A DNA stretch of 23,857 nucleotides, taken from the IMG/VR virus record IMGVR_UViG_3300023222_000128, positions 1 through 23,857 of that record, one strand, 5' to 3'. Positions 6,319 through 20,876 of this stretch are shown here, piece by piece (position 1 is the first letter of the stretch; every line of letters starts with the position of its first letter). This DNA is from a virus. Under the pieces are notes generated by a model that was not told the origin of the DNA, ran no database searches, and worked only from the letters and a program-made list of their open reading frames with translations. Made by a program: the position numbers and the translations under genes.

Positions 6319-8022
6319 TCACTCATCTTCCCAATACCCACTGTAATTTTCAGCAAATTCTGCCGCTAAATCAAGGTCTTCATCGTCTATTTCTTTCTCT
6401 ATTGGTGCTTTTTTGTCTTTGCCCATACGACAATCCCACCCAAAACGCTCCTCTGGATCTTTATCCGTCTTAGGAAACTTAGCTACTTCTATAATAAACC
6501 CTTGATTATCAAGTAAATCATCATTTTTACAATAAGGAAATCGTGATGCTTGATCTAAAAGTAAGCGATTTGCCCCAGTAACATTATGTTGATCTGGAGA
6601 TTTATGGTCATCCACTATGACAAAATCACCATCCTCTAAATGAGGTATTGCTGCTCTTATTCTGACTTCTTTTGAAGTTCTATTTTCTTGTTTAAGTTCT
6701 TTCCACTTAATCTTTTGACCATGTTGCTCAGTTTTTGCCTTGAGCATAGTCTTCATTAACTTCTGAAAAGCTACTGTTTCGATATGCGCCGTTCCGTTAT
6801 ACGATGGGCCAAGATCTTTTCTGACAGAAATATAGTGATTGTATATTTCATCAATAACTGTATCTTCTCCAGCTTTAATGGCCTTAGCCCGATAAAGGTA
6901 CATCTTTCTATCAGGAGTGATAACATAAGGAGTGAGGGCTGTGTAGTCGCCTCGTTTTTTCTTTTCCTCAGTTAAAGCTGGATCAACTAAATAAAACCAA
7001 TAAAAATTGCCTCTTGCTTTTCCGTTTTTACCGTCTTTAAGTAAAATATCTTTGAAAAATGCTTTCTTAGAAATATACTCATACCTACTGACATCAAAAG
7101 CTTGCTCACCTGTGGGCACAGGTTTATTAAGATACTGACATGAGAATATATATCTCTTTTGTGCTTTGAGTTTCTTTTCAAGAAATGCTTCAGTCAAACG
7201 ATTAGGGAAGTAGAGTGGTTTTGGTTTTCCGGTAATTTCATTAAGATCTAGTGAGCCCCCTGCGCTCCTTATATAAATATTATATAAATCCCGTTGGTCT
7301 GGGTCATCTAAGATAGCACCATAAGCATCGTCAAAATGCCACCTAGTGCCAATAATGAATAAGAGACCACCCGGTGATAATAAGGATTGAAGATACCGGA
7401 TATTATCTACAACCTTTTCTACTTGTTCTGCTGTAGTGACGTTCTTCTCTGACACGAGGTCATCGCAGACAATAATATCATAATGCATTCCTGGCATTGT
7501 GGTGCCTATACCGCATGTCATGACTGTGTGCTCTTTAAGACCCACTCTGGTACGAGCAGTTAAACGGTACTGCCCCCTAGACCATACTGCATCATTCTTT
7601 GATTTTGGTGTCTGATCTCCGTAGTATGTTCTAAGAATATTATTATCTTCAAAGTGCTCTCTACCGGCTGCACAAAACTTTTCAGCTTTACCAACATTTT
7701 CACTAGCAATTAGAATACGAATGTTCGGATGTTTTAAGGCAGCATATACTGGTAGACATTCAGTCCACACAGTTGACTTGAAAGAATCACGAGGAGTAAG
7801 GCACAAGTAGTATGTCTTGTCGAAAGGCCCGGGTGTGACTCCTCTGACATAATAATCCTCGAATGAATTAATCGCATGTTCAGCTACCGAGCACATTTCC
7901 AAGTGTGGTTGTGGTTCCATATCTCGTTGCATAATATCACGGCAAAAATAATAGAAATTTTCTGGTTTAAGATACTCCTGAGCCTTTAGGAGTAAAGCTT
8001 CTTCCTTATTTGGTATATCCAT
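6319..8022 (-). CDS. terL: Terminase large subunit (ATPase-nuclease packaging motor)
   Basis: The protein has 567 residues. An adenine-binding/Walker A-type loop, LTPRDSFKST, is near residues 75-84. It is the variant P-loop of TerL proteins rather than the textbook GxxxxGKT. Walker B with the catalytic acid is YDIIVCDD (181-188). The coupling motif GTRWH is at 225-229. The C-terminal RNase H-like nuclease shows FYLVDPAL (Asp347), RGDY (Asp359), HIETVAFQ (Glu415) and a late acidic NDDLLDN. It would cut concatemers and drive DNA through the portal encoded just downstream. Its start lies inside the end of the preceding small gene (17-base overlap). Confidence 0.92.
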   Translation of the reverse strand: MDIPNKEEALLLKAQEYLKPENFYYFCRDIMQRDMEPQPHLEMCSVAEHAINSFEDYYVRGVTPGPFDKTYYLCLTPRDSFKSTVWTECLPVYAALKHPNIRILIASENVGKAEKFCAAGREHFEDNNILRTYYGDQTPKSKNDAVWSRGQYRLTARTRVGLKEHTVMTCGIGTTMPGMHYDIIVCDDLVSEKNVTTAEQVEKVVDNIRYLQSLLSPGGLLFIIGTRWHFDDAYGAILDDPDQRDLYNIYIRSAGGSLDLNEITGKPKPLYFPNRLTEAFLEKKLKAQKRYIFSCQYLNKPVPTGEQAFDVSRYEYISKKAFFKDILLKDGKNGKARGNFYWFYLVDPALTEEKKKRGDYTALTPYVITPDRKMYLYRAKAIKAGEDTVIDEIYNHYISVRKDLGPSYNGTAHIETVAFQKLMKTMLKAKTEQHGQKIKWKELKQENRTSKEVRIRAAIPHLEDGDFVIVDDHKSPDQHNVTGANRLLLDQASRFPYCKNDDLLDNQGFIIEVAKFPKTDKDPEERFGWDCRMGKDKKAPIEKEIDDEDLDLAAEFAENYSGYWEDE

Positions 8023-8587: not shown

Positions 8588-8788
8588 TTAAGGTCCAGCC
8601 TGTGCACCATTATTGAGCTCTAGCCAACCGCCACCCATAACGCGACGACGATTAGAAGCTATGCGGTCATTTTTTGATGGTGCCTTTGACATAGCCATTT
8701 GTGCAGCTTCTGATGCTGGATTACGTTGAATTGGTAAATGACCGTCAATATTACTAGGAAATGCTTCCATGTCTTGCTTATGTGCCAT
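8588..8788 (-). CDS. 66-aa small protein, function unknown
   Basis: ATG at 8788 (MAHKQDMEAFPSNIDG) has AAGGAG ten bases upstream. An in-frame TTG six bases earlier is a poorer alternative. The protein is basic in the second half (KNDRIASNRRRVMGGGW) and ends in a Gly/Asn/Ala-rich tail. It overlaps the end of the TerS-like gene by 11 bases. No family is recognised. It is one of several tiny basic proteins between the two terminase genes. Confidence 0.6.
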   Translation of the reverse strand: MAHKQDMEAFPSNIDGHLPIQRNPASEAAQMAMSKAPSKNDRIASNRRRVMGGGWLELNNGAQAGP

Positions 8789-9341
8789 CTTCAAATAACT
8801 CCTTTTTGGGTATCACGCCCAACTCTCCTATCTTAGCAGATTCTACCATCTTATCAATTTGTTCTTCTGGCATTTCTTCTTTTGCTTGATTATACACCTG
8901 TTGTAAGAGCTGAGAACGGTCAGTGATATTAATAGAACCGATTGTGAGGGATTCTTGTCGTTGTTCCTGGGGGTAAAGGTCGTATATTTTGTGGGCTTCT
9001 TTGACCACATTAAGGAGAGCAGTAGAAGCTTTTGGGTCGTCTTCCGCCAGGTCTGCAGCTTCCATTAGAAGAGAAGCGGTTTTTTCTTCTGTAAACCCCA
9101 CTTTTGCTAAATTTACGTGGTAATTGGCTCTAGTGAAATTTTTATTAGCTATCTTGGATAACGCGTACTTGATTGGGAATTTCTTAGCTGGATATGCTTC
9201 TATGGAGGCGTCTTCTGGGGATTTTCCTTGTGAGATTAAGGATTGAAATAGCATTTCTGATTGTGTGAGTGCAGACGATTCTTCGTCTTCTTCTAGTATA
9301 TATAAATCTTCAGCAGGGGCTATTTGCATTGAGTGGTCCAT
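8778..9341 (-). CDS. Terminase small subunit-like protein
   Basis: The protein has 187 residues. The N-terminal segment has the cadence of TerS proteins: EMLFQSLISQGKSPEDASIEAYP, a helix-turn-helix-like AxxAY stretch. It is followed by ALSKIANKNFTRANYHVNLAKVGFTEEKTASLLME and then DPKASTALLNVVKEAHKIYDLYP. The last two parts match the oligomerisation region of many TerS proteins, where a vulnerable-node helix is followed by a repeat ending in a YP motif. It is the first gene of the leftward late operon, upstream of terL, as expected for the subunit that recognises the packaging site. No ribosome site precedes ATG, which fits a leaderless start from the promoter at 9348-9376. An alternative start is Met5. 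Confidence 0.6.
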   Translation of the reverse strand: MDHSMQIAPAEDLYILEEDEESSALTQSEMLFQSLISQGKSPEDASIEAYPAKKFPIKYALSKIANKNFTRANYHVNLAKVGFTEEKTASLLMEAADLAEDDPKASTALLNVVKEAHKIYDLYPQEQRQESLTIGSINITDRSQLLQQVYNQAKEEMPEEQIDKMVESAKIGELGVIPKKELFEDGT

Positions 9342-9679
9342 TGTGTTATTATACCAATGTTGGTGATCTTATTCAATTTCACTTTTCTTCTCGACCCTAC
9401 TAGAAATAGTAGGGTTTTTTTTTTGTCGATCACTGTTAGTTCTGCCCGGGCGCCAAACCCATGGGCACAAAGCTCCCATTTTAAATCTGGCCTCTTCTTC
9501 ATAGCTTCGGACAATACTCTTCGCGTTGTCTTAGGGCTTGCTGGTATTGCATGGTCAGGCCCAACTGTAAATAGGGGCCCACAGTATGTACAGATCATGT
9601 TAGCGCATATCTGGCAAGCTGTGTCATCAAAAATACCATACCACAAAATCCCCGCAGAAAAAATTTTATTATCCCGCAC
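9320..9679 (-). CDS. Possible zinc-finger/HNH-like small protein upstream of TerS (doubtful)
   Basis: The open frame has 119 codons from a GTG at 9679, with a GAGAG ribosome site six bases upstream. It shows two CxxC pairs (CQIC and CTYC) and then a DHAIPAS segment, a spacing reminiscent of HNH nucleases whose Cys pairs flank a DH motif. A later CAHGF is also seen. The second HNH histidine is not clear. The frame runs across the A10 tract and hairpin and over the late promoter, and overlaps TerS by 22 bases. A -1 slip at the A10 would end it sooner (after DKKKNPTISSRVEKKSEIE). It may be a remnant of a terminase-linked homing endonuclease or not a gene at all. Confidence 0.35.
   Translation of the reverse strand: MRDNKIFSAGILWYGIFDDTACQICANMICTYCGPLFTVGPDHAIPASPKTTRRVLSEAMKKRPDLKWELCAHGFGARAELTVIDKKKTLLFLVGSRRKVKLNKITNIGIITQWTTQCK
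9348..9376 (-). promoter_or_regulatory. Late promoter, extended -10 sigma70 type
   Basis: On the minus strand there is TTGAAT (9376-9371), a 17-base spacer, then TATAAT (9353-9348) preceded by TGG, giving a perfect extended -10 (TGnTATAAT). Only six bases separate the -10 from the ATG of the TerS-like gene at 9341. The transcript would therefore start at or within a few bases of the start codon. This is the only strong promoter found for the leftward late operon. Host RNA polymerase recognition is inferred. Confidence 0.72.
9395..9424 (+). terminator. Perfect hairpin plus T10, plus-strand intrinsic terminator
   Basis: CCCTACTA (9395-9402), loop GAAA and TAGTAGGG (9407-9414) form an 8-bp perfect stem, followed directly by ten T residues. 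It is a textbook rho-independent terminator for rightward transcription. No rightward gene lies to its left, so it would stop antisense transcription from the late region before it enters the control region. On the minus strand it reads as A10 followed by a hairpin, 18 bases upstream of the late -35. It could also serve as a regulator site. Confidence 0.7.
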
Positions 9680-9890
9680 TGAAAGCTCTCGTTACGCTTT
9701 TACACTTCTCACTGCGCTTTTCTGTGTGGTTATTTGTGTAGTGAATTTGAAAATGGTGTGCGATACATGTTGGAGTTAAAATACATACTATGAGTTCGCT
9801 TGGGGTCCGATGCCCCCGCCTTTGAGCATCACCATATACCACACACAACACCCCTTTATCCCTCCACCAACGTTTAAGCCCCAGCTTCAT

Positions 9891-9918
9891 TTAATACATC
9901 GACACATGCTAATTTCAA
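9891..9918 (-). promoter_or_regulatory. Weak candidate leftward promoter
   Basis: On the minus strand TTGAAA (9918-9913) is followed by a 16-base spacer and TATTAA (9896-9891). This matches the sigma70 consensus at five of six and four of six positions. It would drive leftward transcription through the doubtful ORF upstream of TerS. The match is modest for AT-rich DNA and may be chance. Confidence 0.25.
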
Positions 9919-10042
9919 CTTAATAGCTTTGGGGGGATACACACTAATTAACTACATCCACACAATTGAATGGAAGTGGTTGATTAGTGAAGTACCTTAC
10001 CCCACTAAGAATATAACGGTGTTTAGAAGTATGAAGGCTTAG

Positions 10043-10070
10043 GGGAATGTGTGCTAATATCGTCATTCCC
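10043..10070. repeat. 7-bp inverted repeat in control region
   Basis: GGGAATG (10043-10049) and CATTCCC (10064-10070) are perfect inverted arms around a 14-base AT-rich loop. It directly abuts the next inverted repeat at 10071. It is either a protein-binding dyad or part of a larger folded structure. Confidence 0.5.
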
Positions 10071-10123
10071 ACACATACACCACATTTAGGGCAATAATTA
10101 GGGTGTATGTGTGGTGTATGTGT
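10071..10123. repeat. 14-bp inverted repeat combined with an 11-bp tandem repeat
   Basis: ACACATACACCACA (10071-10084) is perfectly complementary to TGTGGTGTATGTGT (10110-10123), with a 25-base loop. The right side is a perfect tandem of GGTGTATGTGT (10102-10112 and 10113-10123), and the left arm holds the same 11-mer inverted (10071-10081). Similar ACACATACC/CACACATA words recur at 10211-10226. Three copies of one 11-mer in mixed orientation look like operator or iteron sites spaced by one helical turn. Confidence 0.7.
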
Positions 10124-10124
10124 A

Positions 10125-10310
10125 TAACAGAGTTTGATTCTTGGTGTAAGTTCAGAACACTATCACTCTCTTATTTGCAAATAAGTAGTTGTATTGCTAA
10201 TTAAATACACACACATACCCACACATATATATAATAAACAATACAACTACTTTTATTAAATTATATATATGGTAGTCTTCTAGACTTACACCAAGTTTAG
10301 ATTTCTGTTA
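10125..10310. repeat. 186-bp imperfect palindrome (72-nt colinear arms)
   Basis: The left arm 10125-10196 and right arm 10239-10310 are reverse complements at about 70% of positions without any gap. Three perfect blocks are in register: TAACAGA with TCTGTTA; CTTGGTGTAAGT (10140-10151) with ACTTACACCAAG (10284-10295); and AAGTAGTTGTATTG (10183-10196) with CAATACAACTACTT (10239-10252). The inter-block spacers are equal, 31 bases on both sides. The 42-base centre is AT-rich and itself partly symmetric. The left arm also contains the perfect palindrome TTATTTGCAAATAA (10171-10184). It is probably an operator/origin element or a mirrored pair of regulatory sites. Confidence 0.85.
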
Positions 10311-10368
10311 AGCACAAAAAACCACACAATCTATTGTATTTGTCGGAAGGTTAAAGTAAACTAAAAAC

Positions 10369-10878
10369 ATGAACAACTCACCCCTAATTCAATGGAAACA
10401 AATCCCCTTTGCTCGTGAATATCAAATATCCACTTATGGTCAAATATGCCGTCAATTTAAACACAGGACTAAATACTACAAACCTTACCTCAAGAGGTAC
10501 TTTCAAATAAAACGTGTTAAGTACCGTATCATTGACCTAGTAGCTCAAACATTTATAGGTCCTTGCCCTAAAGACCACACTCTAATCCAAATAGGAGACA
10601 ACACTGATTTCTCAGTTAATAACTTAGAATACGTACCAACACATACCCTCAAACTACATTCACCAACAAGACAAGAGCTATTCGACATCGAAGAAACCCT
10701 AGAGAACGACACACAAGCCGATATTAGGACAATAGCCCTCTCATTAAGGTCAACCCCAGACAAAATAAGAAAGTCCCTGAGAAACGCTCGTAATCGCTTC
10801 GACAGGTATGTTGAATTCCCACTTCTAATAGATGTGCTCAACCGCACAGCTTCTCGTGATAACAAGATAAGATACTAA
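10369..10878 (+). CDS. Degenerate NUMOD4/HNH-like DNA-binding protein
   Basis: The protein has 169 residues. Residues 8-30 (WKQIPFAREYQISTYGQI) match the NUMOD4 pattern WKxIPGYExYEISNLGRV found in phage HNH endonucleases. Residues about 57-95 follow the HNH_3 framework (LVAQTFIGPCPKDHTLIQI, then DFSVNNLEYVPTH). The histidine normally before LVA and the NH pair before the DGxxxN element are both replaced, so cleavage is unlikely. The C-terminus has a helix-turn-helix-like stretch (ADIRTIALSLRSTPDKIRKS). As the first rightward gene beside the big palindrome, it may be a regulator or origin-binding protein; that role is inferred. The ribosome site GGAAGG lies about 17 bases from ATG, so it is weak. 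Confidence 0.68.
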   Translation: MNNSPLIQWKQIPFAREYQISTYGQICRQFKHRTKYYKPYLKRYFQIKRVKYRIIDLVAQTFIGPCPKDHTLIQIGDNTDFSVNNLEYVPTHTLKLHSPTRQELFDIEETLENDTQADIRTIALSLRSTPDKIRKSLRNARNRFDRYVEFPLLIDVLNRTASRDNKIRY

Positions 10879-11275: not shown

Positions 11276-11304
11276 TTGACTTCTAACGGCCGTTAGATTA
11301 TATT
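11276..11304 (+). promoter_or_regulatory. Early promoter P1 with palindromic operator in the spacer
   Basis: TTGACT (11276-11281), 17-base spacer and TATATT (11299-11304) make a strong sigma70 promoter. The spacer is almost filled by the perfect 14-bp palindrome CTAACGGCCGTTAG (11283-11296), placed where a bound dimer would block RNA polymerase. The start would be near 11311, giving an about 80-base leader with a hairpin (11325-11349). A phage- or host-encoded repressor is inferred but not identified. Confidence 0.8.
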
Positions 11305-11349: not shown

Positions 11350-11389
11350 ATTATACCAACAAGGGAAGTTAAGAAGAAAAGAGAAACAG

Positions 11390-19973: not shown

Positions 19974-20279
19974 ATGAAAACGCCAGGCAAACCACGCGAG
20001 TTAGCAAAAACCCAATACACACAATCAGAAGTCCCAAATGAAGTGTGGGGTCGTTTTGGTGATTTTGCGATTCAAGATAATAACGGATACTTATACGCCA
20101 CGGTACTTAAACAACGTTTACCTAAATGGTTTAATTCTGAGCGTATTTCTATTGCTAAATTAGTGTGGCTATGCCACTACCCCACACACCGCTTTGTATC
20201 AGGAGAAAAGCTAATGTATCGTGACCAAAACAAACTCAACAATGATATTTCTAATCTATTCCTAGGAGGAACTAAATAA
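19974..20279 (+). CDS. Second degenerate HNH-like protein
   Basis: ATG at 19974 has AGGAG five bases upstream. The 101-residue protein follows the HNH_3 layout: FAIQDNNGYLYATV, then RISIAKLVWLCHYPTHRFV and YRDQNKLNNDISNLFLGG. The framework LVWxxH, NxxxNxxxNL is kept, but the histidine before LVW is Ala and the HHxDGN element has become MYRDQN. So it probably binds DNA without cutting it, or has a new role. It overlaps the GroES-like gene as TAATG. Confidence 0.62.
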   Translation: MKTPGKPRELAKTQYTQSEVPNEVWGRFGDFAIQDNNGYLYATVLKQRLPKWFNSERISIAKLVWLCHYPTHRFVSGEKLMYRDQNKLNNDISNLFLGGTK

Positions 20280-20560
20280 TGACTAAACCATATTCTAATT
20301 TGAAACCGCAAGGCGAAAGACTACTCGTCAAAAGATTCTCAGCAGAAACCACATCTTCTGGGGGGATCATCTTAATTGATGCTGCACAAGAAAAACCAAT
20401 GGAAGGTACAGTATTAGCCACTGGTACTGAAAAAAGTAAGACAATTAAAAAAGGCGATCAAGTGTTATTCCCTAAGTTCGCCGGTAATGCAATAGATGAC
20501 GAAGATACTTATTTGATTATGGCGTATAGCGATGTGATTGCTGTGGTGAACCATGCCTAA
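20279..20560 (+). CDS. groES: GroES-like co-chaperonin
   Basis: The 93-residue protein is full length for GroES (about 95). It shows LKPQGERLLVKRFSAE at the N-terminus and the mobile loop with GGIIL (28-32), which in GroES is the GroEL-binding hydrophobic tripeptide. It continues with GTVLATGTEKSKTIKKGDQV and ends YLIMAYSDVIAVV, like GroES's ending in LIMSESDILAIV. AGGAGG lies nine bases upstream. A heptameric lid cooperating with host GroEL to fold phage proteins is the expected role. No GroEL gene is in the window. It is overlapped by a second co-chaperonin-like gene. Confidence 0.88.
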   Translation: MTKPYSNLKPQGERLLVKRFSAETTSSGGIILIDAAQEKPMEGTVLATGTEKSKTIKKGDQVLFPKFAGNAIDDEDTYLIMAYSDVIAVVNHA

Positions 20561-20876
20561 CCTCCTCAAAGCCGGTGACAATTACACCTTAGTCACAAGA
20601 ATCAATCGAAAGTCACATTCTAATGCCGGGGTATGGGTACCTCGTAGAGACCAAGAAGAAACTTTTGGAGCTGTGGTGTACGACCCTGGCTACAACGGGA
20701 TTAAAGAAGGTATCGCAGAGGGCGACTTGGTAGTTGTTCGTCCTAATTGCGGTCATGATTTCTTATTAAATGACCCAGAATTAGGAACAATATCCCTTAC
20801 AGCTTTGCGTATTGAAAATGATGAGATATTTGGAATCATCGCTGGTAAGGGTGATTTAGATAAAAGGAGTTACTGA
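20553..20876 (+). CDS. Second, divergent GroES-like protein
   Basis: The protein has 107 residues. The order of elements mirrors GroES: GDNYTLVTRINRKSHSNAGV (loop residues 18-30), ETFGAVVYDPGYNG, EGDLVVVRPNCGHDF and TALRIENDEIFGIIAG. The final stretch resembles the GroES strand LREEDILAII. The loop reads AGVWVP instead of GGIIL, so GroEL docking may be changed or lost. It overlaps the first gene by eight bases and the next as TGATG. It could form a mixed ring with the first protein or a new barrel function. Homology is by inspection. Confidence 0.6.
   Translation: MPNLLKAGDNYTLVTRINRKSHSNAGVWVPRRDQEETFGAVVYDPGYNGIKEGIAEGDLVVVRPNCGHDFLLNDPELGTISLTALRIENDEIFGIIAGKGDLDKRSY

Follow-up and report, generated by a model that had tools for sequence, protein, structure and literature searches.

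Divergent operator/promoter regions with repeated binding sites are known from phage lambda, in the form of OL/PL and OR/PR. The PR/PL switch of phage TP901-1 is likewise a divergent operator/promoter region (PMC7250872), and prokaryotic bidirectional promoters are characterized as pseudo-symmetric, single promoter-sized elements (PMC12825309). The nearest described genome layout is that of the Zobellviridae, where the corresponding gap holds the direct terminal repeat (DTR). In ICBM1, ICBM2, and RIO-1, the DTR has a length of 172, 159, and 121 bp, respectively, and is located between the early and the structural arm, at the point where both start. A cobavirus study relied on an ORF-free inter-module region to relocate the ends of SIO1 (PMC6775973), and T7 infection is cited as involving a hairpin that includes the terminal repeat (PMC4281155).

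The DNA analyzed here, referred to as the window, is a fragment of 23,857 bases (a partial genome) from an unclassified bacterial virus, IMG/VR record IMGVR_UViG_3300023222_000128, and spans a divergent gap that carries a long imperfect inverted repeat (IR). The IR resembles the regions of lambda and TP901-1 in placing repeated sites, putative in its case, between divergently read gene blocks. It differs from them in that a single unit has been duplicated into an adjoining mirror image, about 220 bp long, whose four blocks keep their register; furthermore, no repressor gene was identified beside the IR and no signs of lysogeny were found in the window. Its symmetry could serve both directions, like that of the bidirectional promoters covered in PMC12825309, but the symmetric unit exceeds theirs many times in length, and its promoter elements are weak or putative. 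With the genome ends of T7 and the Zobellviridae it shares the position between early and structural arms and the presence of short repeats nearby, in addition to the hairpin reported for T7. By contrast, the DTR boundaries of T7, ICBM1, ICBM2, and RIO-1 have no significant mirror symmetry. The IR represents an uncommon form of a familiar type of region.

An inverted repeat between divergent gene arms

The leftward (minus-strand) structural arm comprises a small-terminase-like gene, small genes, the large terminase, the portal, further structural genes, and the capsid, while the rightward (plus-strand) early arm contains an HNH-like gene at 10369, small genes, YopX, DUF6745, Cpn10, a helicase, and an exonuclease. 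An ORF-free gap separates these arms and contains the IR, in agreement with an earlier note on this DNA, which had located it between two transcription arms. The surrounding features were as follows:

6319-8022, minus strand: large terminase subunit
8778-9341, minus strand: small terminase subunit-like gene, the first confident gene of the structural arm
9342-10368: largely ORF-free divergent gap holding the IR, noncoding from about 9360 to 10368 by coding scores
9348-9376, minus strand: best candidate structural-arm promoter, TTGAAT-17-TATAAT with TG
10369-10878, plus strand: HNH endonuclease-like gene, the first gene of the early arm

An ORF at the edge of the gap (9320-9679) is uncertain. 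The small-terminase-like gene matched a gene of contig L332 that has weak terminase small subunit matches (26% aa, 2.5e-5), and the candidate promoter sits 6 nt ahead of its start codon, about 750 bp to the left of the IR. The large terminase (TerL) and portal are homologous to those of the Zobellviridae at about 23-28% aa, and the capsid matches PF25209 and PF10124, whereas the annotation of RIO-1 lists a P22-type coat protein. Seven of the 10 CCACACA boxes of the window are inside the gap (0.26 expected, 0/500 shuffles).

Some separate observations were made in the same DNA. Overlapping -10 boxes are present on both strands at 9344-9424 (TGTTATTAT on plus, TGGTATAAT on minus), together with a strong intrinsic plus-strand terminator at 9393-9416 followed by a T run, and this stretch may promote transcription in both directions and yield a short plus-strand RNA of about 60 nt. 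The early arm also carries a Cpn10 (GroES-like) chaperonin gene at 20279-20560 with a weakly similar neighbor at 20553-20876.

The earlier note had reported a 186-bp palindrome at 10125-10310, with three perfect inverted blocks that measure 7, 12, and 14 bp and stand in register. All three blocks were found at those positions, the spacers are 31 nt in both arms as it had claimed, and the 42-nt center corresponds to 10197-10238. The palindrome itself is longer than had been recognized, reaching from 10108 to 10328 and including a fourth mirrored block, and a perfect palindrome in the left arm, first read as 14 bp, measures 16 bp. The elements in and beside the IR are listed below:

10108-10328: whole imperfect IR, with arms 10108-10207 and 10228-10328 and center 10208-10227, one-base gaps allowed
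Block 1, 14 bp, AAGTAGTTGTATTG/CAATACAACTACTT: left copy 10183-10196, minus strand; right copy 10239-10252, plus strand; reads CAATACAACTACTT outward
Block 2, 12 bp, CTTGGTGTAAGT/ACTTACACCAAG: left copy 10140-10151, minus strand; right copy 10284-10295, plus strand; reads ACTTACACCAAG outward
Block 3, 7 bp, TAACAGA/TCTGTTA: left copy 10125-10131, minus strand; right copy 10304-10310, plus strand; reads TCTGTTA outward
Block 4: left copy 10108-10115, minus strand; right copy 10321-10328, plus strand; reads ACCACACA outward, a motif common to the relative L332
10157-10165, minus strand: extended -10-like TGATAGTGT in the left arm, putative, from sequence and arm alignment
10270-10278, plus strand: extended -10-like TGGTAGTCT in the right arm, putative, on the same basis
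10206-10235, plus strand: sigma-70-like TACACA-18-TATAAT in the IR center, with TATAAT at 10230-10235
10170-10185: 16-bp perfect palindrome CTTATTTGCAAATAAG, left arm only, one of two this long in the window
10071-10123: element with three exact copies of GGTGTATGTGT, at 10071-10081 (minus), 10102-10112 (plus), and 10113-10123 (plus)

The other 16-bp perfect palindrome, TCTAACGGCCGTTAGA, is found in the early arm at 11282-11297, near a minus-strand TGGTATAAT at 11350.

Without gaps, the best arms are 10119-10207 and 10228-10316, which agree at 63 of 89 positions. With gaps, the arms score 87, whereas 1000 mononucleotide shuffles of their sequence gave 23 ± 4 and a maximum of 45. A shuffled-sequence null, as the earlier note had proposed, gave palindrome scores of 10.5 ± 1.4 with a maximum of 20 (300 dinucleotide shuffles of 9890-10369), compared with 37 for the IR, and the second-best palindrome in the whole window scores 14. 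Minus-strand self-BLAST recovered the IR at 68% over 219 bp (E 1e-10), and the segment 10100-10330, folded as a single strand, reached -77.7 kcal/mol (z = -8.8). Other loci, about 3.4 Mb in total, contained just three palindromes that came near or above the IR, with scores of 49, 35, and 32, aside from a low-complexity repeat at 28; L295, with a REP-like palindrome array, exceeded the IR score, and L237 and L082 approached it. The array of L295 (590-990) consists of near-perfect palindromes of about 60 bp (CTGATACTCTTAAAAATTGAC...) and is situated far upstream of the terminase. With a score far above shuffles and spacers that are alike, a chance dyad is excluded. The IR is real and strong, and features like it are uncommon.

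Apart from the three blocks, the arms still agree at 30 of 56 positions (54% vs. 31% expected by composition, P ~3e-4), and in the flanks beyond the IR the identity is at the chance level of 25-33%, ending sharply at the IR borders. Since the spacers as well as the blocks are alike and the arms are equal in length, a common origin of the arms follows. An old inverted duplication of a unit of about 100 bp, in which about half of the spacer positions now differ, is therefore well supported, and the trace of an inverted duplication considered in the earlier note is borne out. If the 26 mismatches were placed at random, perfect runs as long as 14 and 12 would rarely arise (P ~0.01), which is modest evidence that the blocks may be held by selection. 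An assembly fold-back was rejected as the source of the IR, because such an artifact would be nearly identical, as in PQ867846 and PQ867847, which have near-perfect fold-backs at or beside the record ends; the arms of the IR are 71% identical with diverged spacers. Both of these records (L247, PQ867846.1; L254, PQ867847.1) are called circular and complete, and their near-perfect inverted repeats at or near the ends are probable assembly fold-backs.

Putative binding sites facing both arms

Our preferred reading, to which we give a rough probability of 0.45, is that the IR constitutes a mirrored pair of binding-site clusters for one or more phage DNA-binding proteins, facing both arms; the duplication, the four mirrored blocks, and the divergent position are observed, and from there on we infer binding by the blocks, transcription as its target, and every protein involved. 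According to this model, a control unit of about 100 bp would have been duplicated in inverted orientation long ago, leaving a mirror-image site cluster between the divergent arms. Each half carries, from the center outward, block 1, the extended -10-like TGRTAGTNT, block 2, block 3, and block 4 with near-equal spacing. Identical DNA-binding proteins, encoded by the phage (or the host), may bind both halves and would control transcription with opposite polarity, that of the early arm rightward and that of the noncoding leader of the structural arm leftward, while the left-only palindrome CTTATTTGCAAATAAG would let one side be regulated separately.

The arguments for mirrored binding sites are that the IR scores well beyond all shuffles and has no equal in the window, that its spacers are alike, that its blocks are oriented and spaced as described within a gap between the leftward structural and rightward early arms, and that the perfect runs of 14 and 12 are clustered among the mismatches. 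A -10-like TATAAT is present in the center on the plus strand, its minus-strand mirror being TTTAAT at 10200-10205, and the extended -10-like TGRTAGTNT is found at the matching place in both arms. The box to which block 4 corresponds is enriched both in the junction of the window and in L332, and the 16-bp palindrome is confined to one arm. The RNA folds of the two arms differ, and thus the conserved level is the DNA sequence.

Other results speak against mirrored binding sites. The sigma-70-like matches at the IR (3 vs. 3.4 expected in shuffles) are not in excess, the best structural-arm promoter is located some 750 bp to the left and has a counterpart in L332, blocks 1-3 have no further copies in the window, and L332 lacks the IR. 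No regulator gene was identified among the proteins scanned. The earlier suggestion of mirrored regulatory sites for divergent transcription fits the position and the preserved blocks and stays a proposal, given the sigma-70 scan and the distance of the structural promoter. A general phage promoter repeated through the genome was considered separately and rejected within the window, where the blocks have no further copies.

No DNA-level relatives of the IR region were found in the phage collection, and none via single proteins. IMG/VR yielded no exact mirrored-block relative; the listed matches that were inspected had no comparable symmetry and look like chance matches, most of them lying in coding DNA. 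Terminase alignments reached L011-L021, followed by L255, L256, and L332 (50-57% identity). The terminase gene is the first thing on L256, and no junction is visible ahead of it on L255, while L332 is the closest relative with its junction visible (TerL 57-59% aa identical). The IR is absent from L332, which has no palindrome scoring at least 12, so the conservation of the pairing in relatives, which the earlier note had looked to, is not seen in this sole and distant relative with a visible junction. Because it is missing where a counterpart of the structural-arm promoter exists, the IR is lineage-specific as far as visible. L332 contains 12 CCACACA boxes in its 4.65 kb contig (0.87 expected, 0/500 shuffles), also within genes, and since this box is enriched there as well as in the window junction, block 4 is the sole element supported outside the genome of the window. 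Ahead of its first structural gene, L332 carries CCAACATTGTGGTATAATG, which resembles CCAACATTGGTATAATA of the window. With an independent candidate structural promoter that has such a counterpart, the left IR arm is unnecessary for starting the structural genes; a leader or some other RNA may still begin there. In the more distant L014, L015, and L017, the equivalent place is likewise a divergent gap with promoters and structured leaders, and a long repeat like the IR was found in none of the three.

In the course of this comparison, a possible small RNA of about 110 nt was noted at L332:1299-1425, where an extended -10 promoter (TGGTATAAT) is followed by GC-rich hairpins and a terminator (1403-1420), ahead of a second promoter at 1463. 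By inspection, L017:1405-1506, L015:232-342, and L014:3101-3198 each carry a promoter that is followed, immediately ahead of the structural arm, by a structured leader ending in a U-tract; the leaders have two interleaved stems that seemingly co-vary between loci, and there was no Rfam match at the gathering threshold in these loci.

Genome end, replication origin, and other possible explanations

Alternatively, the gap could hold the DTR and the packaging cut, with the mirrored sites recognized by the terminase or forming a hairpin used in the duplication of the terminal repeat, as has been reported for T7 concatemers; we consider this possible but rather unlikely. By its layout, the gap is a good candidate for a genome end, as the DTR of ICBM1, ICBM2, and RIO-1 stands at the equivalent place between the arms, the small terminase-like gene adjoins the gap, and an ORF-free inter-module region of this kind was used for the SIO1 ends (PMC6775973). 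Measured across the center, the copies of block 2 delimit 156 bp and those of block 3 delimit 186 bp, near the known DTR lengths, and the T7 hairpin with the terminal repeat, as cited in PMC4281155, points in the same direction. So does the cobavirus-like contig L082, which has a 136-bp imperfect palindrome (score 32) upstream of the terminase, directly ahead of the structural arm; however, its sequence is unrelated to that of the IR, its center consists of tandem repeats of about 18 bp, and the far side of its junction has no clear gene. The known DTR boundaries without mirror symmetry count against a genome end, as does L332 without a palindrome, and strong palindromes occur irregularly at the junction across the Zobellviridae, in some members only. 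A strong palindrome as a general junction feature of this family was suggestive early and failed on more genomes. In a more specific and quite improbable version, the mirrored blocks would be paired packaging or replication recognition sites bounding the terminal repeat in a new podovirus-like lineage, placed about 150-190 bp apart and nicked on opposite strands or folded into hairpins, thereby duplicating the repeat at the concatemer junction.

A replication origin, whose AT-rich core would be accompanied by inverted arms and short repeats binding an initiator, is distinctly unlikely. The segment 10170-10265 is 78% A+T, the three copies of GGTGTATGTGT, which make a 14-bp perfect hairpin (10071-10084/10110-10123), were reached in 0/100 shuffles, all four copies of CACACATA in the window are in the IR region, and the turning point of the cumulative GC skew is no more than about 1 kb away. 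Yet the skew follows gene direction and the two effects are inseparable, no initiator gene was present among the proteins scanned from this partial genome, and the copy numbers and spacing of the repeats seem unlike those of a regular iteron array. For the origin proposed in the earlier note, the AT-rich core and short repeats thus offer generic support, while the skew turn is confounded with gene direction. The mirrored-site, junction, and origin readings are mutually compatible.

It is very improbable that the region is transcribed and acts as a structured RNA in the form of a long imperfect hairpin. Its folding energy and the U-tract structured leaders seen by inspection before the structural arm in L014, L015, and L017 would agree with this, but any inverted repeat folds well by construction, the differing spacers break many pairs, no terminator was found close downstream of the IR on either strand, and no Rfam family matched at the gathering score, the weak matches being eukaryotic hairpins. 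A conserved RNA fold in both arms was sought and not found. Just as improbable is a fold-back mobile element or a neutral, functionless leftover of a template-switch duplication. While the IR is lineage-specific and absent from L332, adjoins an HNH endonuclease-like gene, and has REP-like palindrome arrays for company in the distant relative L295, it is present as a single copy in the window, shows no target-site duplication at its borders by inspection, and has no matching copies in IMG/VR for its mirrored-block patterns, and its perfect blocks amid diverged spacers suggest selection. A telomere-resolution site of the N15 type was not supported, as no protelomerase was present among the proteins scanned (partial genome) and the longest perfect palindrome is off-center.

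Implications for the lineage

In a lineage where no close cultivated relative turned up, the ACCACACA box common to the window and L332 offers a lead that can be tested. Competing models still exist for the duplication of direct terminal repeats in T7-like phages, and if the IR is the concatemer junction, it would offer a sequence handle on how the ends are duplicated in such phages. If the blocks are binding sites, the two diverged copies would amount to a natural mutagenesis map, with 41 bases kept in four blocks and about half of the rest changed, and one short element would set the polarity of the whole genome.
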